A DNA stretch of 64,000 nucleotides from Plumapathes pennacea (taxonomy: Eukaryota > Cnidaria > Anthozoa > Antipatharia > Myriopathidae), in NCBI GenBank assembly GCA_964036295.1, contig OZ038468.1, positions 1,177,501 to 1,241,500 of the forward strand, read 5' to 3'. The position numbers and the translations under genes are program-made. A model generated the notes under the pieces. The model ran no database searches, was not told the DNA's origin, and was given only the letters and a program-made list of their open reading frames with translations. Every line of letters starts with the position of its first letter. Position 1 is the first letter of the stretch. Below, in pieces: positions 20,491 through 50,842 of this stretch.

Positions 20491-20928
20491 TTAAAAGTAG
20501 AACATAACAGCTTCGTTATTGGTGTGTTGCTCGGCTTCGCTGCCGGCAGAGGATTTTACCAGTGGATTCAACAATTCATCACACCCCTCCTTGTTCTTAT
20601 CCTTTGCACATTTTATATACTCATCAATGATATCTTCTAGATAACTCAGTGGCGCCGAACCTTGGTGCAACAACTGAAGATGAAACTCCTTCAAATTAAA
20701 CGCCTTCCCGAGCTCCTTTTCGACCCGCTGTCTGAGCTTTAAAATCTGCAACTGACCAATCATGTAAGAGGTCGCTTGGCCGGGCACGCTTTGGTAGCGA
20801 GTCACTTCTTTCCGTACGACATCACCGTCGTCCCAAAGTCTGTCTTTGAACAGCTGAATGGCGTCGGCTCGAGTGAGGTTCCTCGCGTGTAGTCCCGTGT
20901 CGATAATCATTCGGAGGGCGCGCCAAAC
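20491..20928 (-). CDS. DUF885 gene exon 7: C-terminal domain and stop
   Basis: Encodes VWRALRMIIDTGLHARNLTR, then VTRYQSVPGQATSYMIGQLQ, the FNLKEFHLQLLHQGSAPLSY block, and a low-conservation tail to TAA at 20491-20493. The acceptor is ttcgttag. Confidence 0.94.
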   Translation of the reverse strand, partial: VWRALRMIIDTGLHARNLTRADAIQLFKDRLWDDGDVVRKEVTRYQSVPGQATSYMIGQLQILKLRQRVEKELGKAFNLKEFHLQLLHQGSAPLSYLEDIIDEYIKCAKDKNKEGCDELLNPLVKSSAGSEAEQHTNNEAVMFYF

Positions 20929-23900
20929 CTAACGAACAACAAAGCGATGATTAAATTAACTCGGGGAGGAGGGTGTCTCAGGTACCCGGGACAACTTTGA
21001 ACCCTATAAAACGGGGCCCAAAGTTCACATCGAATAGTCTTTGATCGAAAGTCTACAGTTTGTAGGTCAAAATTACGAGAGAAAAAAAAGGTTTATAACC
21101 CTGGGTTTGAGCTTGAAACAACCGAGCCCGCAGAGGAAATTCAGGGGCGAATTCAGTCAAGCAGTTGCAAGCGTAGTTTACAAGTTGAATCAATATTTTA
21201 CAAACATTAGAACACACTTTAATCCAATACCATGGCCTCATACTGTTGCAGCGATGCATTCGACACATTTATCTGTGAAAGTTTGCTGAATTTTGTCAGA
21301 CTATATTCGTTTAGTGGTGTTTGAGTAATGGTTCAACTTGTAAACTACACTTGTAATTAATGCGTATTGAATTGTCCACAGCAGGCAAATTTCTTTACTG
21401 GCATTACTTTGGTGAGAAAATGAAAATGGAACATCGAAGTTGGTGGTACTAGCCTGCGACTTCAACATTCCATATTTGTACAGCGGTTTCCCCTTGTAAA
21501 TGTCCGTATCGTACGCGATGAGTGGATTCTCTGCGTATAGTGCCCAGCCCTCCCCGAACGCCGTATAGAAAGTGCTGCTGGACAGCCAGCCAATCACACC
21601 GCCACATGTGTCCTGAAAATGCTCCGTCAATCCTTGTACCTATAACAAACACAAAGATGTCCGTTTAGTCACTTTGCTCTGACAAAGGGATAATGCTTAA
21701 ACCACCCTTACTTCCAAGAGTGCATGATCAACTTCAATTTTCTCCTTCAGTTTCTCATCAGAAATATACCATGCAGTAAGGAGAATTTGGCTTCGACTGC
21801 GTGCTCAAATGAAAGCAGATTAAACTATCAATTCTCACTCCATCACTCATACATTTTCTTCTTAAAAAGTTGGGAAAATCTGTATTTTGAGCTGGGAGTG
21901 AAAGGGTTAAGCAAATCCACATCAGCCTTAGGTCGACACGTGCAGAAGAAGGCGTTGGTGTGAGAGCAGTCTTCAGAAATACTTCGGAAAAACTTTCCGG
22001 ATCTTTCTGAACGTTTCAAATCCCTTAGCTTCCCACCGAGGGTGGGAGGGACTATGGGAATTAGGGTACTCGTTCGTACTCGTCCACATCAGCCTAGGTC
22101 GACACGTGCAGTAGAAGGCGTTGGTGTGAGAGCAGTCTTCAGAAATACTTGGAAAAACTTTCCGGACCTTTCTGAACGTTTCAATCCCTTAGGCCTCCGA
22201 CCGAGGGTGAGAGGGACTATCGGAACCAGGGTACTCGTTCATAGGGAACGTAAAGAAGCGCTAGCTACTGTGCATGGTTGTGAAAGTGGCTAATTTTCTG
22301 TTTGTTTGTTATTCTTTCAGACATAAAATGCCCTTGAACGAGTGGGAACTGGACCCAAGCCCTACCGCTGACCTGTGTGTGGTGCCCGGGCACCCCTTCG
22401 TGCGCGTTCGTACTCCACTGCATGTACCTGGGACCGGGTTTCTCCAGGAAGAACGGAATGAAGTAATTGGCATTTCTAGTGCAGTCCTTGTTGCTCCCCC
22501 GGTAGCTTGGGACCCCCATGTTGGGATTGAAGTTGATGGCGAGTTCCAGTGGGCAGTTGGGAGTCGTTTGCTTCGCGCCAGTGAAGTAAAACATGTCGAC
22601 TGTTTTGGGCGACATCAAGCTCATCACCTGAAATGACGTCACAGCCAGGTGAGTTTTGGGTTGAGTGATCAACTTCAATTTTCTCCTTCAGTCTCCTTAG
22701 ATATATTGTATATACAGTGAGGAGAACCTGGTGTTCGATAACTCGTTTAGCTCTCAATTCTCACTACATCACTCATACATTTTCTTCTTAGGTGGTTTAG
22801 AAGAACTGCGATATATCTGGTCGATAGGTCAGGGTCCAATGTTCTTTCGCGGCCAAAACTAATCAGGCGTCATATTTCTTGTTTTTAGTTTCTCTAGAGT
22901 GGTCCCCCCGGAACTCTTCATTGTGGCTAGTAATTCAAGGAGGGAGTGCTATTATCTGTGAGGGAGGACTCGTACATGTGGTATGTAAGGAAGGGGGATT
23001 CTACAATCATAAGCCCTTCTTTAGGCCCTCTATCCCACAGTCCTTTGCGCGCCCAACTTCTTAGATTCGCCATTTTATTGCTAATCCATTTCCATCCAAC
23101 TTTTTTGAGAAGAAGACTGATTAGATTTGTTTGATCTAAAATTACTACAGTCGAACCCCGCTATTTCAAACTCTCAAGTGAAGCGAGAAATAGTTCGAGA
23201 TAGCGGTTTTTTACCAAGGGGGAAATTCTATCAAGTTCACTTCACTGAAAGTCGATTTCTGTTCGAGATAGCGGGTAGTTCGAGATAACCGAGTTCGAAA
23301 TAGCGGGGTTTTATTGTATTCTACTTATCATGTTTTTTCGTGGTGGGGGCTAAACCGGCCTTGAATTTCTTTTTTGCACATTCCTAGATGAAAGCAAAAA
23401 CATTGGGTTGGCCGAGATGCCCTTTAAACAGTGAATACCTTTCGCGTTTCTGAGAACCATTGTTCCATTGCCAGCATTCTTTGGGGGCAGTTCTTCAGGG
23501 CGTTTTCTGGAGTACTGCAGTTTGCATGAGCGTTTGCATCAGACTCGTTGCCAGGAATCGGCCCATTGTTGAAGTATTGGTCCGGGGTATTGATCTTTTT
23601 GATGAACTCCTGGATAGCTGTGTCATTGTCTGCTTTGCCTGTAACGTTTTTCGCCACTGCGACAGCCTGTGACGTGATAAAACAAAGTAAAACAAGAAAA
23701 ACCAGGACAGCTGAAGACTAGAGTGGAAATCAATAGTTCTCGACAAATTTACCAAGGATATAATGAATTGACATAAATTAAAGTCGACCGGTATAAATCA
23801 GCATAAATTAACCCGATACAGTTGTGTGCAGTGACCGCTGACTCAAAACTATTTGTATTGTTGCCGCACGGCTGAAAAACGTGACGTCATAGGAAAGGCT

Positions 23901-26846
23901 TGAAAGACGAAGTTCGTGTGTGAAACCATTAAAGTATTAAAAGTGTTGTCTTCTTTACCTCAGGGAATAATTTGCCCAACATTTCTTCGCCAAGTTTGTA
24001 AACTTCATCCGGGGTATCATCAGTCGTTGTGAAGAAAGACAACATTTTCAGGTAGGCCCGCGTTCCGTTCAGCGGTTCCCCCGTGGGGAGCTTTTTGGTG
24101 GTCGTTTTATTCAGGTCAGCGGTGCCGTTTATGTAAACGTGAGAGAGCGGTAACGTCGATAGACCGCTGGACACATTACTGGGGACGCAGTGCTGCATTT
24201 GCTCTATTTCCAGAAACCTGAGAAAGAGAAATCCCACAATACTTTGAGCCCTTGTGTAAAGACCAACGAAAGGCGTAGAATACAAATTCTCCCAACCCTT
24301 TATGGAGAAAATGTGTCAGTAATGTAGTGAGAAGTGAACGTTTGATCAGCTATCATCAAAGCAAGGTGTCCAAGGCCAATCTATTTTTACTGTGTGATAT
24401 ATATCTCTGAATAGGAATGGGGCGGCTACGTTTAAATCTTACCGGTTAGGAATTTGGGCCGTTACGAAAATCTATCTGGTATAGCGCAAGCACAAATCAC
24501 AATCATTCAGTGCGATCGGAACGTCCTGAAAACGTATCCGATATGGGACGAACTTCTTTCAAAAAAGCAGCGAAGTAACAGCGCTCCTTTCGAAAATTGC
24601 TCCAAAAATAGCGTAACTCTACCAAAAACGCACGGCATTCTTCATTTATCGGACTTGGATTTCTCTCACCTGATGAAATCGTGGATTGGTTTCCCGACAT
24701 GCTGTACAGCATATTTGCGGATGGAGTCGCGTTGAGCCGCCGTGATGTTGGACAAAAATTCAGTACTGAGAATGGTCTTCATGTAAGACTCGTCTAACAC
24801 ACCTATAAATGCAAACTCCGGTTAATATCTTTTAATGTCACAATCCCATCCCCTCCCCCGTAGATATTCTACCCTACCCCTCCCCCGTAGATAGTCCTCC
24901 CCACCCCTTCCCTCATAGATACCTCATCCTATCCCCACCCATGTAGATAGCCCTCTACGTCTTCTCCCTCGTGACTAATCTCATTTCTCTCTCGTTTTCT
25001 CGTATCGCTAGGCTAATGGTGCATTTTTGTTGTTTCCTTGTGTTTCTAGTCCGATGCTATAGGCGCGATATTTAATTACTAAATGTATTGAAAACGACAT
25101 CAAACCATTGAACTGGACGCAAATATTTTCTCGCTTAATTAATGAACTTGATTGACTGTCATTAACTTTTCACTTATTGCAATTGCACGTCATTTGTGGT
25201 TAGCAACGGTCAACTTCGCTTTCGTCTTAAAATCAAAATTAGGGACACTTCAATCACTAACTTAGAGCACTGCCATAAAAAATAATAACTTGTACTTGTA
25301 CGAATTTGGAAGTTTTATGACTTATTAAAAATTTCGGATCGTTGGGCCTCGCGCGGTCTAGAGCATCAGGTTTTGCAGTTTGAAACCTTTTAGTTTACTT
25401 GAATCGTAAACAGTTGTCCTGACAGCGTCGGGTTATTCATCGTTATGCTCGGTTGCTTGATCTTATTAGCGGAATATTTGTGCAGTCCTTTTTGTGGGGT
25501 GCTTTCAAGCCATAGATGGGAAGTTACCAGCACTCATTTTAGTCATAAATTTGAAGTTTAAGGAAGAAGTCTCTGAATCTCTACGCCGTCGAGAAGTTTT
25601 TGGCTGTTTGCGTGAAAGTTTGTGATGTGTTTGAACTCCAAAAGAATGCGAAAATACATTTAATCTAACTTACTTAAGTAAACAAAAGCCCACTCTCTGT
25701 ATTAACTTCTTGAGAATGTTTTCCGGGTGTATAAAAAAAGAAGTTACACAAATTGTTCTAATAAAACTTGGAAAGATTTGCGTAGCAACAAACTGTCGTC
25801 ACTCCGTCACTCAACTGTGCTGTAACTTGTAAAGTTTGTTTTCTTATGAGTAATTACAGCGGATTTATTACTGACAAACAACAAAGTCTAAGTGAGCAAT
25901 TTATATGCGGATATTTTTTTAAATTCCTGCGGTGCTACCGTTGACTGATGACTTGCGCTGTCAGCCCCCATACTGGGTCAAGACGGCATTTGCCAGCTGA
26001 CGTACACACGAATTACATTTTTCAAGGTCATGTTTAAAAGTATTGTGATTTCTTGTTTGTGGGAGCTTTTCAGGGATCATGAGTAAACACATTACCTCTT
26101 GCGCCTTCTTGTGACACCTTGGGGTAGGATCCTTTGATGGCGTGAAGCCCGGCAACGCACTCCTCCACAGAACGTACCATTCCCGCTTTAAACCCGTACC
26201 GCAGATTATCCATATATCTGCTGAATGTCAAATTGACCTGAGCAAGTTTTTCCTTCAAAACAGCGACATCTCCCAGATTAAATGGCTTAAAGGACTTCAA
26301 ATTGTTCCCCAGCGCCCGTCCAACCCCACAAATTGCCTGATAGCAGAAATTATTTGGCCCGAGGAGATAGTCGCCCGCATAGTAATCACCGTCGAATGGA
26401 GTTGCAAAGTTATGCTTCAGATAATGCTTAACCTGAGCTAAAGCCTTCCTTTCCCGTGGCTTCAGGTCTGCCGCGGTGAAATCCAAATCTGAGACTTCTT
26501 TATAGAGTTTACTCGCTTCATCCGTGACGTGTTTCAGATTTGCAGGGGACGGGTCGTATGACTTGTATTTCTGCCGTATCTCTTGCGGTTTAACACCAGG
26601 CTTCGAGGCAATGTCGTAAGGATGCAGCTCAAAATATTTGTTTTGTACTTTTTGGATAAATGCCTCGATCCCGACGCGTTGAGCCTCTCGTGAGTAACTG
26701 CATCTCTCCGCGGCTTTATGCTCCGAAGTGCTTGTCTCACAACTGGGCGTCTTTGTGATCAGTATTATTCCAGCAATCAGGCATGCCAAACCAGCAACCA
26801 GCAACACACAGCCAATAACCAAAATCGTCCGAGATAAGTTCTTCAT
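20491..26846 (-). CDS. DUF885-family protein, predicted membrane-anchored metallohydrolase (7 exons, 749 aa)
   Basis: Exons on the minus strand: 26846-26096, 24802-24670, 24217-23959, 23666-23439, 22627-22373, 21639-21454, 20928-20491. They total 2250 bp with all phases consistent and end in TAA. Start: ATG at 26846 in cttcaccATG; nearer upstream in-frame codons are not ATG. Residues about 6-33 form one TM helix near the N terminus with few charges before it, suggesting a type II anchored protein with a lumenal or extracellular catalytic part. Catalytic landmarks: HEGVPGHH at about 533-540, the DUF885 (PF05960) signature thought to bind metal, and EGWALYAE at 572-579. VWRALRMIIDTGLH and EVTRYQSVPGQATSYMIGQ follow in the last exon. 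DUF885 is distantly related to zinc metallopeptidases; the substrate is unknown. The open frame and intact motifs suggest a working gene. Confidence 0.94.
21454..21639 (-). CDS. DUF885 gene exon 6: EGWALYAE, ends at a GC donor
   Basis: Encodes VQGLTEHFQDTCGGVIGWL, then FYTAFGEGWALYAE and KYGMLKSQ. The only border that keeps the conserved KYGMLK-Q-(V/I)WRALR continuity puts a gctagt donor after CAG, making this a GC-AG intron. Confidence 0.9.
21726..21909 (+). repeat. Dispersed repeat family B, copy 4
   Basis: Full-length member inside a DUF885 intron. Same start and end phrases as the copy at 5513. Confidence 0.75.
21915..22250. repeat. Two direct copies of a ~165-bp unit
   Basis: aggtcgacacgtgcag and gagagcagtcttcagaaata recur about 165 bp apart (near 21930 and 22095). 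It lies inside the same DUF885 intron as the family B repeat at 21726. Confidence 0.8.
22373..22627 (-). CDS. DUF885 gene exon 5: HEGVPGHH metal motif
   Basis: Encodes VMSLMSPKTVDMFYFTGAK through YFIPFFLEKPGPRYMQWSTN, then AHEGVPGHHTQ. The donor gtcagc follows CAG. The His-Glu and His-His residues are the expected metal and catalytic site of the family. Confidence 0.95.
22667..22806 (+). repeat. Dispersed repeat family B, copy 5
   Basis: Begins gatcaacttcaattttctcc and has a shortened middle. It starts 40 bp from the acceptor of DUF885 exon 5. Confidence 0.7.
23146..23318. mobile_element. MITE-like element, cgaaccccgctat ends
   Basis: acagtcgaaccccgctattt at the left pairs with aatagcggggttttattgta at the right. 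Inner gttcgagatagcgg is repeated. About 173 bp in a DUF885 intron. Confidence 0.75.
23439..23666 (-). CDS. DUF885 gene exon 4
   Basis: Encodes AVAVAKNVTGKADNDTAIQE, then FIKKINTPDQYFNNG and a two-cysteine segment. The acceptor is cgtcacag and the donor gtattc. Phase 0 at both ends. Confidence 0.9.
23959..24217 (-). CDS. DUF885 gene exon 3
   Basis: Encodes FLEIEQMQHCVPSNVSSGL, then LPLSHVYINGTADL and a stretch ending EEMLGKLFPE. It contains several N-x-S/T sites, which fits a lumenal or extracellular domain. The acceptor is ctttctcag and the donor gtaaag. Confidence 0.92.
24670..24802 (-). CDS. DUF885 gene exon 2
   Basis: Encodes VLDESYMKTILSTEFLSNIT, then AAQRDSIRKYAVQHVGKPI. The acceptor is ttatag and the donor gtgaga. 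Confidence 0.9.
24835..24960. repeat. C-rich tandem repeat with gtagata
   Basis: About four to five diverged units of roughly 25-30 bp, each with a ccctcccc-type part and tagata. It lies in DUF885 intron 1. I see nothing else in 24960-26090. Confidence 0.7.
26096..26846 (-). CDS. DUF885 gene exon 1: start, TM anchor, N-terminal domain
   Basis: Encodes MKNLSRTILVIGCVLLVAGL and the rest of a TM helix, then a cysteine-containing stem and a helical domain ending in KVSQEGAR. The donor is gtaatg in phase 1. Confidence 0.93.
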
Positions 26847-27035
26847 GGTGAAGCAGAGCCGTGGTTCCCTTCCGATACTCACTAAACTCCGCGCTCGTCA
26901 ATCGATTGTGATCAGACCAAAACCTCGCGCATATTTCTATCCGCGTTTCGTAATCAGATCCAGGCCTCCTCTGTAACCTGACAAAATCTTATCTAAGAGG
27001 GGGATAGTGGGTAAAAGTTTGCATTATCTCGTAGT

Positions 27036-37700: not shown

Positions 37701-38397
37701 ATGGGTTCAGCACTATCACAGCTAAAACCGGATGGTTTCCACGCTGCTAGCTATGTTCCTCTGTACATCATTTGCACTTTGGGATTTTTTTTTGGTGGAA
37801 CATTACTTGTTTATAGTTTATACAAAGGTGAACGACAGGACGTCACGTGCACAATAGCAGGAGAGCCAACAGTTGAAGTTAAAGATGTGTCAAGTTGCTG
37901 CTACGAAGAACACTGTGGGAAACACTTTTCCTTGATGGCTATTGCACTCGTGTTGGCATTTCTGTTGTACATTAAGTCATTGTTGTATTATGTCTATGTC
38001 AAAGAAAGAGTAGCAAAGTGCAACCCAGACCTTGGACAGTATTGGTTTACAGTGTTTCAATCATACATGGCTCAGCTCTTAGCAAGGATTGTGATGTTGG
38101 TTATTACACCTTTTTTTCAACTTGCAAAATTCCGGCCTACAGAATTCAGATGTGCTAGCTGTACTCCTCAGTCCAAAGGAAATACTACATCGGGGCCTTT
38201 GCAGGAGTATGACTGCAAAATACCTGATTTATTCCCGTCCAAAGTCACAGCTGGATGGTTCTTGTTCTTTGTAAATCTTGGGGTCCTTGTTGTTTCTGGT
38301 TTGGAGACATGTTACCTCCTGTACAGAAATGACAAGTACCGTAATGATGAGTACTTCTTTCATGATCATCTCCATATCAAAGTAAAAGAAAGTGAAG
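37701..38397 (+). CDS. Exon: four-helix connexin-like membrane module
   Basis: The ATG at 37701 lies 17 bp after an acceptor (cttattctag), so a non-coding 5' exon precedes. It begins MGSALSQLKPDGFHAASYVP. Predicted TMs are at about 20-41, 76-99, 117-140 and 185-208. A short N-terminal segment, three to four cysteines in each loop, a cytosolic loop of only about 15 residues and FFHDHL after TM4 complete it. Connexins have C-x6-C-x3-C in loop 1; here the spacing is C-x15-CC-x4-C, so homology is suggested by loop 2 and TM4 rather than proven. The donor is gtatgt in phase 1. Confidence 0.88.
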
Positions 38398-41300
38398 GTA
38401 TGTAATATTATACTTTTACATGGACTTGTATAGCGTAAAAAATGCTCTCATTCGGGTGGCGGAAAGGGGGGTGGGAAAGCAAAGTTCCAGTGGTGAAATG
38501 ATTAAGTAGAAAACTCCCCCCTCCCCCACCAACATGTAATAATGGTTGCCGTGGATACCAAATATGGACGCGGCGATTCTTACGAAATATGCTTAGCACT
38601 GATTATACAAAAAGTGTTAGTTACTAACTATACCAAATCGTCAGTCATTACAATTATGTCGAACTGAATTGTTCTGCCACCTGGCTTGATAAATGTATAT
38701 TATTCAAAGTTCGCTGCTGTTTCTTTCCATAGGCCTGAGAGCTCCACTACTGGGGGAGGACGAAGCGCAACCGTGTGCACCAGGTAAATGAACATTCATA
38801 CTATGAGTGAGGGAAGTCTCCCAGCCTACTTAGTGTTATGTTAGTGTTATGTGTTTGGTAAAGGACGAAACTTTTAGAGAATAAGAACTTACTGCGCCAA
38901 CTCTGTATCAATGCACTGCCAAACTCGACCGCAGGGTTACTTTCGAGGTAAGAAATGTATCTATACATATGCAAGGCGATTCTTACGAAATATACTTAGT
39001 ACTGATTACAAAACGCGTTAGTTACTAACTATACCAAATCGTCGGCTATTACAATATGTCGAGCAGAATTGTCCTGCAACCTGATTTGATAGATGTTTAT
39101 TATTCAAAGTTCGCTGATGGTTCGTTTGTTTTCTATTAGCTGGTGAAAGTATTACCATCAATATCGACGGGCACAGTGCAATTCCGGTGGATGGAACAAA
39201 TCTGCCAGCACCGTCTGTCGACAAGGTCACGAGAGGCACTGCTGAAAACGTTAATAGGTTCAAAGAGTACCTGACAAGCATGCAACTGCCCATTACCGAT
39301 GTAAGTGTATCAAGCCTGCATATAACAGTGATGTGCACGAGTCTGGAGATACTGGAAGACTTGTGGCAGAATTATACCAGCGGGGCGTTAAACGACGCTG
39401 CCCAAAGATGCCTTGTTACAGATGAAGTCCTGAAGAAGTACAACCTCAAACAATTCAAGCTTGTGACGACTATAGATGAAGAAGAGTACATCAGTTGTAA
39501 ATCACAGTTTATTGAAAAGCAAGGTAGGCCTCATTAGAAATGACGTTACGAGTTAAACATTTAATCCAAGATAGGCAACAGAACGCCATGACACACTCCG
39601 AAACATAAGTTATGTCCTAAATTTAATGTATACTAGAAATACGATAATTAACAATTATCCTACGAGGGCGCGCCGAATATGGATTGATAAATAACCAACG
39701 AGACGCCGCGCCGAGTTGGTTATTATCAATCCATATTCGGCAAGCCCGAGTAGGATAATTGTTTTATTAAAGACTGGACCACAAAATACTCTCCAAAATG
39801 ATTTTATTTGACGCAAAAAAGACCGGAATACGACTCAACTTCCGCTCCAAAAATACAATGATCACATAATTACCGCAACTATGACAACGTCTTTGCGAAC
39901 GGGCTAATAGCTGAATGAATGAAAATCGAGTGGAGAACACATTACCATGGATTTACACCGCACAAACACTCTTAGAAGGAGTTTTCAAAAATATCTTAAG
40001 GTGATGTACCAAAATTATTGAAAACTTGGACGTTGGTACAGTTTGTAAACATCGCATTACGGAGGGAATCGCTTTCTTTGCTCGCCATGTGCGACGTTTG
40101 TGATGCTGCTTGAAACTGAAAACTGGCTGTGCTAAACGAGAATGAGAACTGAAGCTGGAGATGCTTGAACATCAGCAAGGAATATTGAAGAAGAAAACTA
40201 TATTTGCTTCTGTGAGGGCAGAGTCGATGGTGATGGAAAACTGTTTACATCGCGGAGGCGAACCGAAGTAAGCGATCGATCAATGGCTGCTCGTATCGAC
40301 TTGAGCGAAGGTGCCGTCTTGTTCCCTTTGCTGTTGTGTAAAAACACTTGAGGCACGCATTTTTTCCTCTTTGCCCATTCTTTAATTAGTGTTGTAAATT
40401 TGTCACACCCGGGACTTGCAAGCTACTCTGAAAAGGTTGTAAAATCTGAAAAAACTTTCTCAACATTACTTCGTCGCTCACGCGTTCATTGACCATATTT
40501 GTCCACCTATTGGATATGAGCTGATAACCCATGTCCAAGGAACCAATCAAAAGCCTAGAAATCCAATATCTAATGGTCCAGTTTTTAATAATCGCAGATA
40601 CCCCCTCGCTCTGCCATTCATTGGAATTTTACGTTGGTACTGCTCAACAAGAGCAGCCTTTGTTTTACCGAAATGTTGACGCAATCTTTTCTTCGAAGTC
40701 AAGTGCTACACGCAAGCAAAGGAAGGAGAAAAAGAATGGTGTGTGTTATACTTTTGCGTTGTGTCGATTGCGTGACGCCGTACGTATTTCCCACGGTCGG
40801 CACGTCAAATTAATTCATACAGTCTGCCAAGCACGTCTCAAAATTTAATACTTAAATTTTGAAGTTAGTCGGCCGCCGTAGTACGGGAAAAAAGGAACAC
40901 TGGTTTTCCAATTTTGAATTCATAGGCAGTACAATTAAATAGGCTTCCTTTGCGATTTTATTTTTATTCTGGAATTCATCCACAAGACTGAGGCATGCAT
41001 ATTTAATAGCTCTAATCGTTTTGTATGTGAACCCGCTCAAAACAGCATGATTTCTGCCAGAATCAAAGCAAAACTTAAACGGTTTACTTCAAATTATACA
41101 CGGGCTTCAGACCTAGTCATACTTCAAAGGGCTGTGAACGATTCTCGCTGCAATCACCGCATGTCAAATTACAGCATTTGTTATAGTTTTTGTCTTGAAA
41201 GAAAAAAAATAAGACATCTAAATAAATCATTCAAGACTCTAAGTTCCGATTGCTCTGAGCGAATACGGTAGCCGAAACTGGCGACAGAAGCGTATTAAAA

Positions 41301-44300
41301 CAATACTTCGGGGGAAAATGATCAGCATGCAGATTTTAATACATTCTTGAAGTGATCGAGTTACAAGATACGGGATAGAATATACTGTATTTGTCACGGT
41401 GATTGTTCGACTTCCACTGACTGACCTTTCTTGCTTGTCCTTTCTGAATAAGTGCCGACCGGGAGTTTGTTGTCCTCAGATGCCTCAAAGAACCGCTTAC
41501 GATACTGATTCCGATCCGCTTTCATGCGCTGTTGTCTTTGCGAAGTTCAGTTGTCTGCTGTGTCCGCTTTTCCTTCTAATACTCTCTGTCATATCATCCT
41601 TTTGTGGCAGCAATTTCTGGTCCCTGCTTTTGTTTTTGAAAGCTTTGTACTTTGCGTCTTTGCTCAAGACAGATTTTCTGCTCTTCGATTGTTTCACGCT
41701 TGCCTTGCTCTGTCATACCCTCTTCGTTTTCGAAGACGAGCTTCATTCAGTTTTTCAGCTTCCAAATTCATTTTCTTTAACGCAGAACGAGTCAATGATC
41801 CTTTCGATGTTTGACATTCCTTCAAAGTTTAGTTCAAATCTGTCAAATTTGATCCGACGCACGCATCCTTTTATATAAGGAACGAACTGCCTTATAAGGA
41901 GTAGAATAGTTTTCCGTTAGTCTTTACATGAAGTGTTGTCTGCCCCTTGACTGACTGACTGACAGACGAACATTAATTTTGAGATGGCGACCCGCTTGGA
42001 CTCTCAAAATAGCGAGATACTGCACCGTTAGCGTCGTGATTACTACCCTCGCTTACGCTCGGGGAAATGTATTTCATTACCCTTCTAATTCAAAAAACGG
42101 GCAAAGCGCAGGTTATTGGGGCAGCAGAGCAGTAAAGACAAGTATAAATCTAGCTGCTAGTTTAAATACGTTACTTAGTTTTGATTTCTAAAGGGTCTTA
42201 CAATCTGTTGAAAACACAATTGCTGTGGACTGAAGTGTCGTTCAGTATGGTTTCATATACAGCTTCATATATCAGGAGAAGTGATGACACACCACTGAAT
42301 AATAACACGAGCGACAGACTGTGAAAACACAGCTAGATATATATTGAAATCGGATCTTGTTAACCAAGCAATTTATGAATGGCAGCAAATATGTAGAATA
42401 TCGGCAGTACAAAAAAAAAAAAGGACTAGAAACTTACCGTGATGTGACTAAGCGACACGTTCTATACAGCTTCATATATCAGGAGAAGTGAAGACACGCC
42501 ATTGAGTAACACGAGCGACAGGCTGCGAAACACCGCTCTCATGTTTTCGCGCCAAATGCTGTCGTTGACGTCATGCACCCCGCAGATCGCTGTATGACAT
42601 TTGGAACTACGCTGTGCCATTCGATACTATGCTAGACCATTTCAACGATTTTCATGCCATTTGGTGTTACGCTGGGCCATTTGATATTATGACAAGCTGT
42701 TTCATGCAATTCCATTCCATTTGATGTTATGGAAGATCGTTTGCTGTACCAATTGGTATTATGCTGTGCTATTTCACGCAGCGCTATCACATTTGATGTC
42801 GCGCTGGATCATTTAAAAATAGACTGTGTTGCTTCAGCATTGACAGCTAATCCATACTTTGTTTACCTCGACCATTTCTTTTCAATCTGTCCCGTAGTCA
42901 CATTTAGACTTGTCTATTTCACAATTTCATGTTCCAATCCGTCATCGACAGTTATGCACCAGTCAATTGTAACCCCCGCCCCCCCCTCGGGGAATGGTGG
43001 GGACATGGATTTTCTTTGTTGCAATAATCGACTATTCCCCCACCCTATGGGACATAATGTGCTGACAAATCCCCCACATTGTGGGGCCAAAAATTTGACA
43101 AAATTTTACAAAAGAGGCTTTGCACAGAAAACTTCTCTCACGAACGAACCGCGTGGTCGAACTGGACGAGGCCGCATTGCATCATATTTTTGGTCAAATC
43201 TCCCACCTTGAGCCCCACCTCCGCAGCTGGTCGGGAATCATGAAGAGAAAATCCCCCACCCCTTCGAGCTTAAACACCAATGCCCCACATTGCCCCACCA
43301 TTCCCCGAAGTGGGGGGGAGGGGGGTTGGGGGTTACAATTGACTGGTGCATTAGACCGTTTATTGTTTGGCCAGACTATTTATTTATAATGTGATACCAG
43401 CTCTTAATAAGAGAACTAGATTAACTGCGTCGGAGTGGTGATAAAAACGCTGGTATATCGACTGAAAGTTGATAAATAGCTACTGAAACGCCGTAAGGGT
43501 AACAGTAGCTGACGTTTCGAGTGTTAGCCCTTCGTCAGAGCGAATGAGAGATTATGGCATACATGAGATGTTTGACATATTCGCTGTAGACGAGAGGCTT
43601 ATTGGAGAGGGGGAATTGTTAGAAACGGGTTTATTAGAGCATTTACAGTATGCAGTTTATTTTACGTGTAGATCTCTCAACAAAATATTGCCGTTTATAT
43701 TTGCGATTTCACTATACTTTTAAAAGTTTCGCCAGCAAAAACGGCAAACCGTGACTACTGCAAGCCATACCGTTTAAATAACTTACCAGGGACAACATTG
43801 CAGCTTCAGTTTCGACTTTCCTTAGCAGTCAAACACTTCCAAGTTACCAATATTCTGAGTTTCCCACTCGAATTAGAGCTCAGGCGGTGAGCAGAAACAT
43901 AGGATTATCGTTTTGTTTGGAGGGACGAATTTTCGGCGGCTTTGCTGCCTCTTCCATTGGTTACCTGGTCAGGTTTCTTCTACAAAAGCGATGAATTTGC
44001 GTTTAGGCTAGAACAGAAAGGCGTTGTAATTTCCTTCATATATCACAGTTTTTCTTTTCTCTGGCCATAACTTGAAGTACACGCACAATTATGTAGTTAT
44101 TCCAAACCGTACATTTATTGTATGTAACCTTCACATACAACACTTAAAAATACTAATGCAAGTTAATCTCTCTGGACAGCTTTAAGAAATGTTTCTGAAT
44201 TAACCGGAGATGTGTGGCAATTACTGGGTCGGCGTCTCGGTTTGGATGAAGAGATACTACGAGAGATTGCGGTTGACCGTGGAAGCTCCGAAGAAAAGGC

Positions 44301-47300
44301 CTTTGCAATGCTGATGGCTTGGAAAAAGAGGAGAACTGCAACAAATTTGTTGCCGCTGATGAGGGCTCTGCGTGAGATAGGTCGCGAAGATTTGGCAGAA
44401 GATTTAGAGGTAAGTCAAGAGATAAAAAGTTATTTTGTAGAGAGTCATGAAACATCGACACTACCGATGTTCTGCCTTATGCAGTGATTGCAAACCTGCC
44501 TTATGTCATTCTTTCATTCAATTTGCTTCTCTTTCTTTCCACGCCGTCTCTCAATGTTACCGACTTTGTTTTATGCGACTCACAAGGAGGAGCTCAGTCA
44601 TACATTCTTGTTAAGTCCTATGAAATGTTATTTGCTTACCTACTTTAATCTACATTGTGACTCGATAAAATTGTACTTACTCAACATATTGTAATTCAAC
44701 AGGAATTTGGAGAAATTCACGAAGGTAAAAAAAAATTGATTACGTTTTTTGCTGTCTTTTCGATTGATCCATAAGAACACAGTGTAAAAAGGGTGATCGT
44801 ATTTTAATCAGCAATCTGTTGATGGGGGATTATTTATAAATTGACCTTGCTTATTGCAGAGACAGGGTTGGAGCTTATTTTAAATTATGAGATAACAGCA
44901 AGAGGTACTGTGTTCTTGGTCAATATAATACTAAATGAAGTTATATGTGGGAAACGTAAAGTTCAAAAATATATCACCAAGCATCTAATGCGTGTCATTT
45001 AGTCATGTTTATATGCGATAAATTCTGGTGCTCAAAGTCGACAGAATAAAAATGGGGAAAGGGGAGAGGGGGGGGGGGGGGGGTTATTAGAGACGGGGAG
45101 CTTATTTCAAAATTTGATCTTGTAGGCGGGGGGGGGGGGCTTATTCGAGCATTTACAGTATGCAGTTTATTTTACGTGTAGGTCTCTGAACAAAATATTG
45201 CCGTTTATATTTTCGATTTCACTACACTTTTAAATTTTTCGCCAGCAAAAAGAACAAACCGTGACTACTGCAAGTCGTGTCTAACTAACTTACCAGGGAC
45301 AATATTGCAGCTCCAGTCTCAACTTTCTTGAGCAGTCAGATATTCCCAAATACTAATGCAAGTTAATCTCTCTGGACAGCTTTAAGAAATGTTTCTAAAT
45401 CGATCCGGGATAAGTGGCAATTAGTGGGTGAGCTTCTCGATTTGGATGATGAGATACTACGAGAGATTGAGGTTGACCGTGGAAGCTCCGAAGAAAAGGC
45501 CTTTGCAATGCTGATGGCTTGGAAATCAAGAAGACCTGAAATAGATTTGTTGCCGCTGATGAGGGCTCTGCGTGAGATAGGTCGCAAAGATGTGGCCGAC
45601 AATTTAGAGGTAAGTCAAGAGATGAAAAGTTATTTTGTAGAGTCATGAAACATCGACACTATTCGATGTTCTGCCTTATGCAGTGATTGCAAACCTGTCT
45701 TATGTCATTCTTTCATTCAATTTGCTTCTCTTTCTTTGCACGCCGTCTCTCAATGTTACCGACTTTGTTTTATGCAGCTCACAAGGAGGAGCTCAGTCAT
45801 ACATTCTTGTTAAGTCTTCTGAAATGTTATTTGCTTACCTACTTTAATCTACATTGTGACTCGATAAAATTGTACTTACTCAACATATTGTAATTCAACA
45901 GGAACATACAGAAACTCAAGAAGGTAAAAAAAATAATTGATTACGTTTTTTGCTGTCTTTTCGATCGATCCATAAGAACACAGTGTAAAAAGTGTGATCG
46001 GTATTTTAATCAGCAATCTGTTGATGGGGGATTATTTATAAATTGACAGGGTTGGAGCTTACTTTAAATTATGAGATAACAACAAGAGGTACTGTGTTCT
46101 TGGTCAATATAATACTTTATTACACGACTTCACATTTTCGAGTGCAAATACGGGCCAAAACGAGTGCAAAGATGGGCGCGTATTGCACTCGTCAGGAACC
46201 AGACCAACTGGTTTATTAGCTTACGTGATCAGTTTTCGCAAGCAAAGTTTACGAACGCGTCATTTTTTGTTCCATTTTGCGCGCGGCAAGAATGTTTGCC
46301 CTGCTTCGTTTGTCGTGTAATAAACAATTTATTACACGAAAAGTCGTGCAATACGGTTGTATTTTTACTCGTCAGTTTTATTTTTTCTCGCCTGAAGCAG
46401 GCTCGAAAAAATAAAACCGACTCGTAAAAATACTCCGCCGTATTGCACTCCTTCCCGTGTAATAACCTCTTTATATGAAGTTAGATGTGGGAAACGTAAA
46501 GTTCAAAAATATATCACCAAGCATCTAATGCGTGTCATTTAGTCATGTTTATATCCGATAAATTCTGGTGCTCAAAGTCGACAGAATAAAAATGAGGAGG
46601 GGGGGGGGGGGGGGGGGGGGGCTTATTAGAGACGGGGAGCTTATTTGAAAACTTGACCTTTGTAGGCGGGGGGCTTATTCAAGCATAATTTACGGTATGC
46701 AGTTAATTTTACCTGTAGGTCTCTGAACAAAATATTGCCGTTTATATTTTTGATTTCTATACACTTTTAAATTTTTCGCCAGCAAAAACAACAAACCGTG
46801 ACTACTGCAAGTCGTGTCTAACTAACTTACCAGGGACAATATTGCAGCTCCAGTTTCAAATTTCTTGAGCAGTCAGATATTCTCAAGTTACCAATATTCT
46901 ATTTTCCCACTCGAATTAGAGCTCAGGCGGTGAGCAGAAACATAAGATTATCGTTTTGTTTGGAGGGACGAATTTTCGGCGGCTTTGCTGCCTCTTGCAC
47001 TTGTTACCTGGTCAGGTTTCTTCTACAAAAGCGATGAATTTGCGTTTAGGCTAGAACAGAAAGGCGTTGTAATTTCCTTCATATATCACAGTTTTTTTCC
47101 TCTGGCCATAACTTGAAGTACACGCACAATTATGTAGTTATTCCAAACCGTACATTATTGTATGTAACCTTCACATACAACACTTAAAAATACTAATGCA
47201 AGTTAATCTCTCTGGACAGCTTTAAGAAAAGTTTCTAAATCGATCCGGGATGAGTGGCAATTAGTGGGTCGGCGTCTCGGTTTGGATGATAAGATACTAC

Positions 47301-50300
47301 GAGAGATTGCAGTTGAAAGTAGTAGCTCCAAAGAAAAGGCCTTTGCAATGCTGATGGCTTGGAAAAAGAGGAGAACTGCAACAGATTTGTTGCCGCTGAT
47401 GAGGGCTCTGCGTGAGATAGGTCGCGAAGATTTGGCCGACAATTTAGAGGTAAGTCAAGAGATGAAAAGTTATTTTGTAGAGTCATGAAACATCGACACT
47501 ATTCGATGTTCTGCCTTATGCAGTGATTGCAAACCTGCCTCACGTCATTCTTTCATTCAATTTGCTTCTCTTTCTTTCCACGCCGTCTCTCAATGTTACC
47601 GACTTTGTTTTATGCGACTCACAAGGAGGAGCTCAGTCATACATTCTTGTTAAGTCTTCTGAAATGTTATTTGCTTACCTACTTTAATCTACATTGTGAC
47701 TCGATAAAATTGTACTTACTCAACATATTGTAATTCAACAGGAATTTGGAGAAACTCGCGAAGGTAAAAAAAAAATTGATTACGTTTTTTGCTGTCTTTT
47801 CGATCGATCCATAAGAACACAGTGTAAAAAGTGTGATCGGTATTTTAATCAGCAATCTGTTGATGGGGGATTATTTATAAATTGACCTTGCTTATTGGAG
47901 AAACAGGGTTGGAGCTTATTTTAAAATATGACATAATAGCAAGAGGTACTGTGTTCTTGGTCAATATAATACTATATGAAGTTAGATATGGGAAACGTAA
48001 AGTTCAAAAATATATCACCAAGCATCTAATGCATGTCATTTAGTCATGTTTATATGCGATAAATTCTGGTGCTCAAAGTCGACAGAATAAAAATGGGGAA
48101 AGGGGAGGGGGGGGGGGGTTATTAGAGGCGGGGAGCTTATTTCAAAATTTGACTTTGTAGGCGGGGGGGGGGGGGCTTATTCGAGCATTTACAGTATGCA
48201 GTTTATTTTACGTGTAGGTCTCTGAACAAAATATTGCCGTTTATATTTTCGATTTCACTACACTTTTAAATTTTTCGCCAGCAAAAAGAACAAACCGTGA
48301 CTACTGCAAGTCGTGTCTAACTAACTTACCAGGGACAATATTGCAGCTCCAGTCTCAACTTTCTTGAGCAGTCAGATATTCCCAAGTTACCAATATTCTA
48401 TTTTCCCTCTCGAATTAGAGCTCAGGCGGTGAGCAGAAACATAGGATTATCGTTTTGTTTGGAGGGACGAATTTTCGGCGGCTTTGCTGCCTCTTGCACT
48501 TGTTACCTGGTCAGGTTTCTTCTACAAAAGCGATGAATTTGCGTTTAGGCTAGAACAGAAGGGCGTTGTAATTTCCTTCATATATCACAGTTTTTTTCCT
48601 CTGGCCATAACTTGAAGTACATGCACAATTATGTAGTTATTCCAAACCGTACATTTATTGTATGTAACCTTCACATACAACACTTAAAAATACTAATGCA
48701 AGTTAATCTCTCTGGACAGCTTTAAGAAATGTTTCTAAATCGATCCAACATGAGTGGCAATTAGTGGGTAAGCTTCTCGATTTGGATAATGAGATACTAC
48801 AAAAGATTGCGGTTAAAAGTAGTAGCTCCAAAGAAAAGGCCTTTGCAATGCTGATGGCTTGGAAAAAGAGGAGAACTGTAGCAGATTTGTTGCCGCTGAT
48901 GAGGGTTCTGCGTAAAATAGGTCGCGAAGATGTGGCCCACAATTTAGAGGTAAGTCAGAGATGAAAAGTTGTAGAGTCATGAAACATCGACACTATTCGA
49001 TGTTCTGCCTTATGCAGTGATTGCAAACCTGTCTTATGTCATTCTTTCATTCAATCTGCTTCTCTTTTATTCCACGCCGTCTCTCAATGTTACCGGCTTT
49101 GTTTTAATCGATTGACGACGAGGAGCTCAGTCATACATTCTTGTTAAGTCTTCTGAAATGTTATTTGCTTACCTACTTTAACCCACATTGTGACTCGATA
49201 AAATTGTACTTACTCAATAGAGCGGTTTTTGGATGACTGTCGAAAGTAATCGTGTGATTGCTTTGGTTTTGCGTTTGCTTCGCTTTGCGATTGGTCCACA
49301 CAAGTTTGGCAGCCTTCTTAACCAATCAGGAACAAAATCAAAACCAAAACCAAACACTTCTCACGCAAGCGATGGCGTGTATTCATTGCTGATTGGAAAG
49401 TAAAACCAAACGCAAGACCAAAGGTGAATTACTTTGGCTTCTGATTGGCTGAACAGTTTTCTCTCAGTCTCTGTGATTGGCCTGTGTGATTACTTTGGTT
49501 TTGGTTTTCGACACTCATCCGAAAACGGCTCTATAATTATTGTAATTCAACAGGAACATCTAGAAACTCGCAAAGGTAAAAAAATAATTGCTTACGTATT
49601 TTGTTGTCTTTTCGATCGATGGATAAGAACACAGTGTAAAAACTGTGATCGGTATTTTATCAGCAATATGTTGACAGTGAATTATTTAAACATTGACCTT
49701 GCTTATTATAGAGAGGAAGTTAATTGTTAAAGATGAGATAACAAGCAAAAGTACTGTGTTTTTGGTCAACAAAATACTTTGTAAAGTTAAATGTGGGAAA
49801 TGTAAAGTTAAAGAATATATCACCAGGTATCTAATATAAATCATTTGTTTCGTTTTTGTACTAACTTTAGTTCTCAAAGTCGACAGAATGAAAATAGGGG
49901 GAAGGGGAGGGGGAGGGGGTATTAGAGACTGGGGGTTTATTTTAAAATTTGACCTTGTAGACGGGGGCTTATTGGAGAGGGATGCTTATTAGAGCATTTA
50001 CGGTATGCAGTTTAGTTTACGCGTAGATCTCTAAACAAGATTCTGCCGTTTAAATTTTCAATTTCAAAAACGGCAAACCGTGACTACTGGAAGCCATATC
50101 TAACTAACTTACCAGGGACAGTAATGCAGCTTCACTTTCGACTTTCTATAGCAGTCAGATATTCCCAAGTTACCAATATTCTATTTCCCCACTCGAATTA
50201 GAGCTCAGGCGGTGAGCAGAAACATAGCCGGATTATCGTTTTGTTTGGAGGGACAAATTTCGGCGGCTTTCCTGCATCTTTCACTGGTTACCTGGTCAAG

Positions 50301-50842
50301 TTTCCACAAAAGCGATCAACTTGCATTTAGGAGGAACCCAGTTGGGGAAGGCAGTTCTAATACGAAAACACCTGGGAGGGAGTTGAAATGCTATGCAATT
50401 TCGTAAGAGTATTTTTATGTTCTTTCAGGATCTGATGTTTAAATACATGCGTTGAATAGGGATTCAGGTATGACTTTTTTAATTTGCGCAAACCAATTTG
50501 GATCTGGCTATCAGTTCGAAAATTTTAACAGAAAAAAGATGCCATCTAATTGTGAGGAGCGCTTGTGCTCATATGGAAAACGCGCGTCAGCCTAAAGTGT
50601 AGACTATAGCGTTTTAACATGCAGTATATTTTATGTGTAGGTCTCTGAACAAAATACTATCTTTTAATTTGCGAGTTCAGTGGCGCCTGAGCTGAATTGT
50701 GCGCACGTGGCTTAGTTTGAGAGCTTCAACTTTCATAATTGTTTCAGGTTTGTTTGCGGAATGTTTGGTTGAGAAAAACGCGTGGCACTTGGTACTAAGT
50801 AGCCTCCTGACAGAAGACCACGAGCGGCTTATGTCAAAGTAA
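37701..50842 (+). CDS. Connexin-like 4-TM / TRADD-N / four death-domain protein (12 coding exons, 744 aa)
   Basis: Exons: 37701-38397, 38733-38783, 39140-39523, then four cassettes (44180-44409+44703-44724; 45380-45609+45902-45923; 47220-47449+47742-47763; 48720-48949+49554-49575) and terminal 50748-50842. They total 2235 bp, all phases agree, and the stop is TAA. Domains: 1-232 four predicted TM helices; 233-249 linker; 250-377 TRADD-N-like domain; 378-713 four death-domain cassettes of 84 aa; 714-744 tail. The membrane part has cysteines at 50, 66, 67 and 72 in loop 1 and 151, 154 and 172 in loop 2, and its YDC...P..K..F helix-4 entry resembles connexins. Innexin-, CALHM- or LRRC8-like folds are alternatives. 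A role in death-domain signalling at a membrane pore or contact is inference. Which cassettes are co-spliced is unknown. Confidence 0.82.
38733..38783 (+). CDS. Exon: 17-aa linker
   Basis: Encodes GLRAPLLGEDEAQPCAP. The acceptor is ttccatag and the donor gtaaat, phase 1 to 1. A decayed copy of this exon with its upstream intron lies at about 52856-52902. Confidence 0.75.
39140..39523 (+). CDS. Exon: TRADD-N-like domain
   Basis: Contains SSLHITVMCTSLEILEDLWQ, YTSGALNDAAQRCLVTDEVL and TTIDEEEYISCKSQF. This pattern (hITV.C.tLe.Le.LW..Y.SG.L...a...L.td.......l....L.t.I.Eee Y..Ck) is what I know from cnidarian TRADD-like N-terminal domains, recalled from the family and not searched. The acceptor is ttctattag and the donor gtaggc, phase 1 to 1. 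Confidence 0.82.
39636..40588. mobile_element. Foldback element inserted into repeat X
   Basis: Repeat X at 31755 reads continuously where this copy is interrupted, so the insertion is about 0.94 kb with a short taat-type target duplication. Its left end is a long hairpin: about 39651-39762 has arms containing caattatcctac and gtaggataattg around a gaatatggattgataa / ttatcaatccatattc inner pair. No coding capacity was seen. Confidence 0.75.
40588..41157 (+). repeat. Repeat X, interrupted copy
   Basis: Co-linear with 31770-32364, from cgcagatacc to a phrase ending cgattctcgctg. Confidence 0.8.
41390..41890 (-). pseudogene. Decayed charged open frame, possible transposon relic
   Basis: On the minus strand a hydrophilic frame reads LNEARLRKRRGYDRARQ-like text and continues as KSRKSVLSKDAKYKAF and GHSRQLNFAKTTAHESG, broken by stops. 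The Arg/Glu-rich style resembles fragments of Helitron-type proteins in invertebrates, but no diagnostic motif is present. Confidence 0.25.
42570..42960. repeat. Degenerate ccatttgatnttatg minisatellite
   Basis: Repeats of tgccatttgatgttatgctg-type text with diverged spacers. Open frames across it are artefacts. Confidence 0.6.
42954..43355. mobile_element. MITE-like element, ~400 bp, long inverted ends
   Basis: The left end gcaccagtcaattgtaaccc pairs with the right end gggttacaattgactggtgc. The arms continue through C-rich/G-rich tracts to ggggaatggtgggg and its complement. It lies in the intron before the death-domain cassettes. Confidence 0.85.
43443..43548 (+). repeat. Dispersed repeat family D, copy 2
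   Basis: Contains gaaagttgataaatagctac, cagtagctgacgtttcgagt and cccttcgtcagagcg. Reverse-orientation relative of 16384-16460. Confidence 0.65.
44180..44409 (+). CDS. Death-domain exon 1
   Basis: Encodes LRNVSELTGDVWQLLGRRLG, LDEEILREIAVDRGSSEEKA, FAMLMAWKKRRTATNLLPLM and RALREIGREDLAEDLE. It shows the W..Lg..Lg....I..I......e.A..mL..W......L...L..iGr.dla..L pattern of the Death domain. The acceptor is ctggacag and the donor gtaagt, phase 1 to 0. Confidence 0.9.
44703..44724 (+). CDS. 22-bp mini-exon 1
   Basis: Encodes EFGEIHE plus one base. The acceptor is attcaacag and the donor gtaaaaaa. It restores phase 1, so the pair with the preceding exon forms a symmetrical cassette. Confidence 0.75.
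45380..45609 (+). CDS. Death-domain exon 2
   Basis: Encodes LRNVSKSIRDKWQLVGELLD, LDDEILREIEVDRGSSEEKA, FAMLMAWKSRRPEIDLLPLM and RALREIGRKDVADNLE. It is the most acidic version in helix 2 (GELLDLDDE). Splice sites are as in exon 1. Confidence 0.9.
45902..45923 (+). CDS. 22-bp mini-exon 2
   Basis: Encodes EHTETQE plus one base. Same acceptor and donor as the other mini-exons. Confidence 0.75.
46116..46472 (-). mobile_element. MITE-like family C, copy 2, inserted in cassette unit 2
   Basis: Reverse orientation of 15765-16120. Units 1, 3 and 4 read straight through the same point (between aatac and tatgaag), so this is a clean insertion after the unit duplicated. Confidence 0.9.
47220..47449 (+). 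CDS. Death-domain exon 3
   Basis: Encodes LRKVSKSIRDEWQLVGRRLG, LDDKILREIAVESSSSKEKA, FAMLMAWKKRRTATDLLPLM and RALREIGREDLADNLE. Phase 1 to 0. Confidence 0.9.
47742..47763 (+). CDS. 22-bp mini-exon 3
   Basis: Encodes EFGETRE plus one base. Same borders as mini-exon 1. Confidence 0.75.
48720..48949 (+). CDS. Death-domain exon 4
   Basis: Encodes LRNVSKSIQHEWQLVGKLLD, LDNEILQKIAVKSSSSKEKA, FAMLMAWKKRRTVADLLPLM and RVLRKIGREDVAHNLE. It is the most basic version. Phase 1 to 0. Confidence 0.88.
49218..49534. mobile_element. MITE-like family E, inserted in cassette unit 4
   Basis: The ends tagagcggtttttggatgac and gaaaacggctctata are inverted copies, and agtaatcgtgtgattgcttt pairs with the right subterminal part. 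Units 1-3 lack it at the same place in the intron before the mini-exon. A TA target duplication is likely. Confidence 0.88.
49554..49575 (+). CDS. 22-bp mini-exon 4
   Basis: Encodes EHLETRK plus one base. The acceptor attcaacag survives only 19 bp after the inserted MITE. Confidence 0.7.
50748..50842 (+). CDS. Terminal exon with stop
   Basis: After acceptor attgtttcag the frame that fits phase 1 reads GLFAECLVEKNAWHLVLSSL, then LTEDHERLMSK and TAA. It is the only segment after the cassettes that both fits the phase and closes the frame. It has no recognised domain; it might pack as a short helix. Confidence 0.6.

Follow-up and report, generated by a model that had tools for sequence, protein, structure and literature searches.

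Does a single gene of the antipatharian coral Plumapathes pennacea place a connexin-like membrane module in one chain with death domains? The question is raised by a locus at positions 37701..50842 of what we call the window, that is, the whole stretch of 64,000 nucleotides analysed here (positions 1,177,501 to 1,241,500 of the forward strand of contig OZ038468.1, assembly GCA_964036295.1; contig C7 in our genome searches, which covered the 290-Mb assembly in 24 contigs). A first-pass annotation had described the locus as one in-phase model of 744 codons, joining a cysteine-looped, connexin-like module of four transmembrane (TM) helices to a TRADD-N-like domain and four death domains, and had proposed a membrane pore or contact protein. 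At a probability of roughly 55%, we favour the reading that phase-1 exon shuffling assembled one gene here, encoding a membrane-anchored death-domain adaptor or receptor whose connexin-related N-terminal third likely forms a non-docking ring that would seed a death-domain complex.

The in-phase model was borne out. On the plus strand, 12 exons (the TM exon, a 51-nt link, TRADD-N, four units of a 230-nt death-domain exon with a 22-nt microexon, and a last exon) add up to 2235 nt, or 744 amino acids and a stop, and all 11 introns are GT-AG and in phase. Exon 1 (37701..38397), modelled from its translation, paralog matches and phase, reads without a stop for 232 codons, ends in phase 1 and encodes four predicted helices with cysteines in both loops, as first described; it is no chance frame, finding 12 further matches in the same genome at E ≤ 10 (best 1.6e-13). 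Exon 3 (39140..39523) matches the TRADD-like N-terminal domain (TRADD-like_N, PF20694) at E 3.7e-5, only just above the Pfam cut-off (23.9 against 23.7 bits). All four death-domain exons match Pfam Death (PF00531) and agree in phase: 44180..44409 (E 2.7e-11), 45380..45609 (E 4.4e-10), 47220..47449 (E 1.8e-11) and 48720..48949 (E 1.6e-10). Each is followed, according to the splice and phase model, by its microexon (44703..44724, 45902..45923, 47742..47763 and 49554..49575, respectively). Given this exon model, TRADD-N precedes death domains in one chain. TRADD itself shares that combination but is soluble with one death domain, whereas the window gene has four and a membrane module. The Pfam scan of the model's exons found neither NACHT nor leucine-rich repeats (LRRs), the pair by which we recognise NOD-like receptors (NLRs).

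Since the linker exon, the TRADD-N exon and each 252-nt unit of death-domain exon plus microexon all have 1-1 phases, these modules could be gained, lost or skipped with the frame intact. The linker exon 2 (38733..38783), the weakest of the model, and the last coding exon with its stop (50748..50842) are candidate exons placed by GT-AG signals and phase only. About 155 bp of intron is duplicated at 86% identity, at 38572-38726 (before exon 2) and 38975-39126 (before exon 3), and exon 2 may perhaps derive from this duplication.

The family to which the TM module belongs is significantly related to connexins, in sequence and in fold. In the PDB, a profile of 12 members found nothing but connexins (17 sequences at E ≤ 10, best 1.2e-5); a profile of 17 members found 34, again all connexins (best 1.1e-12, covering positions 15-218 of 241), and so did an 11-member profile made without the window's own subfamily (17 matches, best 1.5e-7). 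In the reverse direction, Pfam Connexin was matched by 10 of the 12 members (best E 4.1e-11), and any other of the 22 families matched in all by at most two. Across the genome, Connexin (PF00029) gave 16 matches at E ≤ 10, of which five lay above the curated cut-off. The family also conforms to the connexin fold. Within it, the window copy groups at 99/99 with L002, L003 and L006, its nearest TM paralogs at 26-29% identity, although its branch is long (2.03) and its exact place unsure. Comparing the profile of this subfamily with that of the remaining members gave a probability of 99.9 and an E value of 2.2e-34.

Connexins have three cysteines at fixed spacing in each extracellular loop; disulfides link the first cysteine of either loop to the third of its partner loop, and the two middle cysteines to each other. 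In the coral family two cysteines per loop are conserved, all four being present in 16 of 17 rows (the exception, L043, diverges before the last), and in HMMER alignments to Cx43, read by eye, they coincide with connexin cysteines one and three of each loop. The conserved cysteines are spaced 10-16 in loop E1 and 10-65 in loop E2, and the window copy has extra cysteines beside them. The middle connexin cysteine is not conserved, so one of the three disulfides would be missing. This pattern appears to fit a real connexin relation; as it falls short of the six-cysteine definition of a connexin, we call the module connexin-related. It resembles connexins (PF00029; Cx43, Cx26, Cx31.3) in family profile, fold and the alignment of these two cysteines per loop, and differs from them in the lost middle cysteine, in an N-glycosylation sequon in E2, in its fusion to TRADD-N and death domains or to NACHT, and in occurring in an anthozoan.

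Three indirect lines suggest that the TM exon belongs to the same gene as the TRADD-N and death-domain exons. In L002, L003 and L006 a same-phase GT stands directly behind the matching C-terminal stretch, providing candidate phase-1 donors, although that of L006 (GTATGA) is weak. The TRADD-N exon and its 5' intron are 80.6% identical in DNA to L048 (over 468 bp) and 81.1% to L049 (over 551 bp), and in both of these the upstream exon encodes HEPN_DZIP3 (E 7.9e-41 and 6.6e-38), in a frame that runs up to GTGAGT, a phase-1 site. In the window, a search with HEPN gave nothing better than E 8.6; with HEPN upstream of the same TRADD-N exon in L048 and L049, the connexin-related exon thus occupies the HEPN position of its sister genes. 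Finally, exon 3 has no ATG ahead of its domain. The fusion proposed at first is supported as a gene model, at the genomic level, by phase, candidate paralog donors and the exon swap, and the parts would be co-transcribed. In the part of PMC8195603 used here, cnidarian TRADD-N is fused to an N-terminal HEPN, as in L048 and L049; the window gene shares with these proteins the TRADD-N exon, at 80-81% DNA identity, and the phase-1 junction, and differs in having the connexin-related exon instead of HEPN. Downstream of L049, inspection by eye of the frames of at least 60 codons over the next 3.5 kb revealed no death domain.

Several observations weigh against one connexin-related gene. Unspliced, exon 1 hits a stop at 38405, 8 nt beyond its donor, and comparison of the genome match lists showed no second locus pairing the TM module with TRADD-N. 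The window module alone matches no Pfam family (0 families, where five other loci in the genome pass the curated cut-off of PF00029) and, in the PDB, only antibody chains; the profile of its four-member subfamily alone finds nothing. With its own searches and the subfamily profile negative, and the profile comparison tying that subfamily to the others, the window copy reaches the connexins only through its paralogs, and to that extent the first description as connexin-like stands. Behind L002, L003 and L006, in 30-kb stretches, tblastn with window queries found no TRADD-N or first death domain. Among 99 plus-strand frames of at least 75 codons in the same stretches (a scan that omitted three TM frames and three C11 frames, two in L021 and one in L022) there was no TRADD-N or Death, and one NACHT, which has a phase-1 acceptor and sits about 5.4 kb downstream of the C11 copy, L006.

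The early stop makes exon 1, read unspliced, a complete four-TM protein, and paralogs such as L005 and L008 also stop soon after TM4. Two adjacent genes might then lie here, a short stand-alone connexin-like membrane protein and a separate adaptor with an overlooked first exon of its own; a protein of just TRADD-N and death domains is a usual kind of adaptor. We consider this unlikely, given an exon 3 without ATG before its domain, sister TRADD-N exons that in this genome follow an exon which encodes an N-terminal domain and closes in phase 1, and the candidate donors at the TM-exon end of three paralogs. It is distinctly improbable that the locus is decaying or chimaeric, with the TM exon a diverged relic that has no joint function with a working TRADD-N gene beside it: the window copy has diverged further than any other of the 17, and there are broken copies within the C3 cluster, but its 232 codons are free of stops, it retains each of the four conserved cysteines in its loops as well as the E2 sequon, and the donor of exon 1 is intact and in frame. 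We rate as very improbable a kinship of the module with other large-pore proteins (LRRC8, pannexin/innexin or CALHM) in place of connexins: the sequence profile searches find connexins only, PF00876, PF12534 and PF14798 are absent from the 22 families matched by the 12 members, and the genome's CALHM matches and its one weak Pannexin_like (PF12534) match do not lie at connexin-like loci. In the fold comparison LRRC8 ties with connexins. The module has no sequence match to the LRRC8 volume-regulated anion channels, and it differs from them in having NACHT or death domains, not LRRs, directly behind the putative pore. The 13 CALHM matches over the cut-off lie at C5:4259628-4285522, C5:3145271, C9:15858655-15865376 and C11:14292231. 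The sole innexin match in the genome search is weak (L039:1204-2331, C4:927216; 23.3 bits against a cut-off of 25).

If one gene with a connexin-related module is correct, how might its product work? As connexins keep both termini cytosolic, the same location is expected for TRADD-N and the death domains; the loop charges give no clear support for or against this placement. An N-glycosylation sequon lies in the E2 region in 16 of 17 rows, the window's included (L042 has none), and glycosylation has been argued to keep chordate innexin homologs from forming gap junctions (PMC8769644, used here in part). On that argument the E2 sequons speak against docking into gap junctions, which favours a hemichannel or scaffold and disfavours the contact protein of the first-pass annotation. 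The module would most likely form a connexin-type ring without docking to an adjacent cell, and this ring may gather many death domains beneath the membrane. Assembly or opening of the ring could then seed a death-domain complex, or death-domain assembly could gate the pore; either event might lead to signalling towards cell death or NF-kB. A similar coupling, with the pore driven by oligomerisation of NACHT, is conceivable for the NACHT-LRR relatives.

These relatives form part of a larger family. With L040 as query the genome gave 34 matches at E ≤ 0.001, and by hand count the module occupies 33 places (pieces of one copy joined, the window and two C1 copies added), some broken by stops. L040 is a single open frame of 1200 amino acids in which Connexin (37.8 bits against a cut-off of 31.3) is accompanied by NACHT (E 4e-28), NOD2_WH and LRRs. 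A connexin match is likewise joined to NACHT in one frame in L042 (33.2 bits), L044 (20.1), L011 (26.4) and L004 (22.2). LRRs are seen in L044, so that L040 and L044 combine NACHT with LRRs; the stretches of L042, L011 and L004 examined end before such a region. These five loci lie on contigs C5, C1 and C3. Connexin is matched without NACHT, in the stretch read, in L041 (32.4 bits) and L043 (32.8). Over the TM module, the ratio of nonsynonymous to synonymous substitution rates (dN/dS) was 0.45-0.78 in all six paralog pairs compared and 1.95 in the recent pair L002/L003. A 70-kb region of C3 (L023-L029, C3:3463000-3532999) is dense in connexin-related copies, some broken and some followed by NACHT.

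Actiniarian NLRs with three to five N-terminal TM segments, 15 of them in one clade, have been described, with others cited in Nematostella and Acropora digitifera (PMC5094078, used in part). Like these, L040, L042, L044, L011 and L004 join a membrane module to NACHT, and they probably belong to the same group of anthozoan transmembrane NLRs, from which the window gene model differs in having no NACHT or LRR. Connexins are not mentioned in the main text of PMC5094078 or of PMC8260672.

The death-domain cassettes were also compared with one another. Death domain 2 matches the other three at 75-82% and its next relative in the genome at 39%. dN/dS exceeds 1 in all six pairs (1.10-2.30), on just 3.5-5 synonymous changes per pair, and exons differ more than the downstream intron at Fisher p < 0.003 in three of the six (0.051, 0.15 and 0.33 in the others). 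Across the cassettes (44180-49575) the flanking introns are often more alike than the exons. These values are hints of diversifying selection and not proof.

Elsewhere in the window, the minus strand carries exons of a sodium/calcium exchanger (13459-14370; PF01699, E 1.2e-20) and of a DUF885 gene (20491-26897; PF05960, best E 2.1e-37). On other contigs, L034 and C4:5.72-5.77 Mb hold an array of near-identical frames of 180-243 codons that are GFP-like (best PDB match eqFP611, E 1.8e-15) and below the Pfam cut-off. In the mitochondrial contig, C24, about 0.85 kb with a second open frame splits COX1, an intron of a kind typical of hexacorals; the conserved positions of this COX1 are sensible under table 4 (AGA/AGG arginine, ATA isoleucine, TGA tryptophan), a code that rules out bilaterians. 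Both features point to a hexacorallian anthozoan.

What, then, is new? Neither transmembrane NLRs nor the exchangeable TRADD-N chassis is; the connexin relation, and the fusion to TRADD-N and four death domains, had no match in our literature search. Connexins have been found only in chordates, by PF00029 search (PMC6391747) and by BLAST (PMC8769644), in the parts of these papers used here; the latter notes one sea-urchin connexin transcript that could not be confirmed there, and holds that connexins arose de novo in chordates. In the one open-access library searched we found no connexin-like modules in cnidarians and no connexins fused to NACHT or death domains, a search outside which lie supplements, preprints, InterPro and UniProt, which may hold such annotations.

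Tentatively, connexin-type pores may have served in the cnidarian lineage or earlier as the membrane module of innate-immune proteins (connexin-NACHT-LRR and connexin-TRADD-N-death-domain), with chordate gap-junction connexins as later relatives, a scenario we rate as possible yet somewhat doubtful. There is a real chance that the finding bears on the origin of connexins, a question that an anthozoan family with a significant connexin relation reopens and for which it supplies concrete sequences for testing. Further, the family may reveal what the N-terminal membrane region of the anthozoan transmembrane NLRs is. In the scenario of connexin-type immune modules, animals would possess immune proteins that include a large pore of their own, and assembly of such a protein could both open the membrane and nucleate death-domain signalling; the family predicts a pore within some of the cnidarian immune proteins, and these would be an animal counterpart of the plant resistosome channels.
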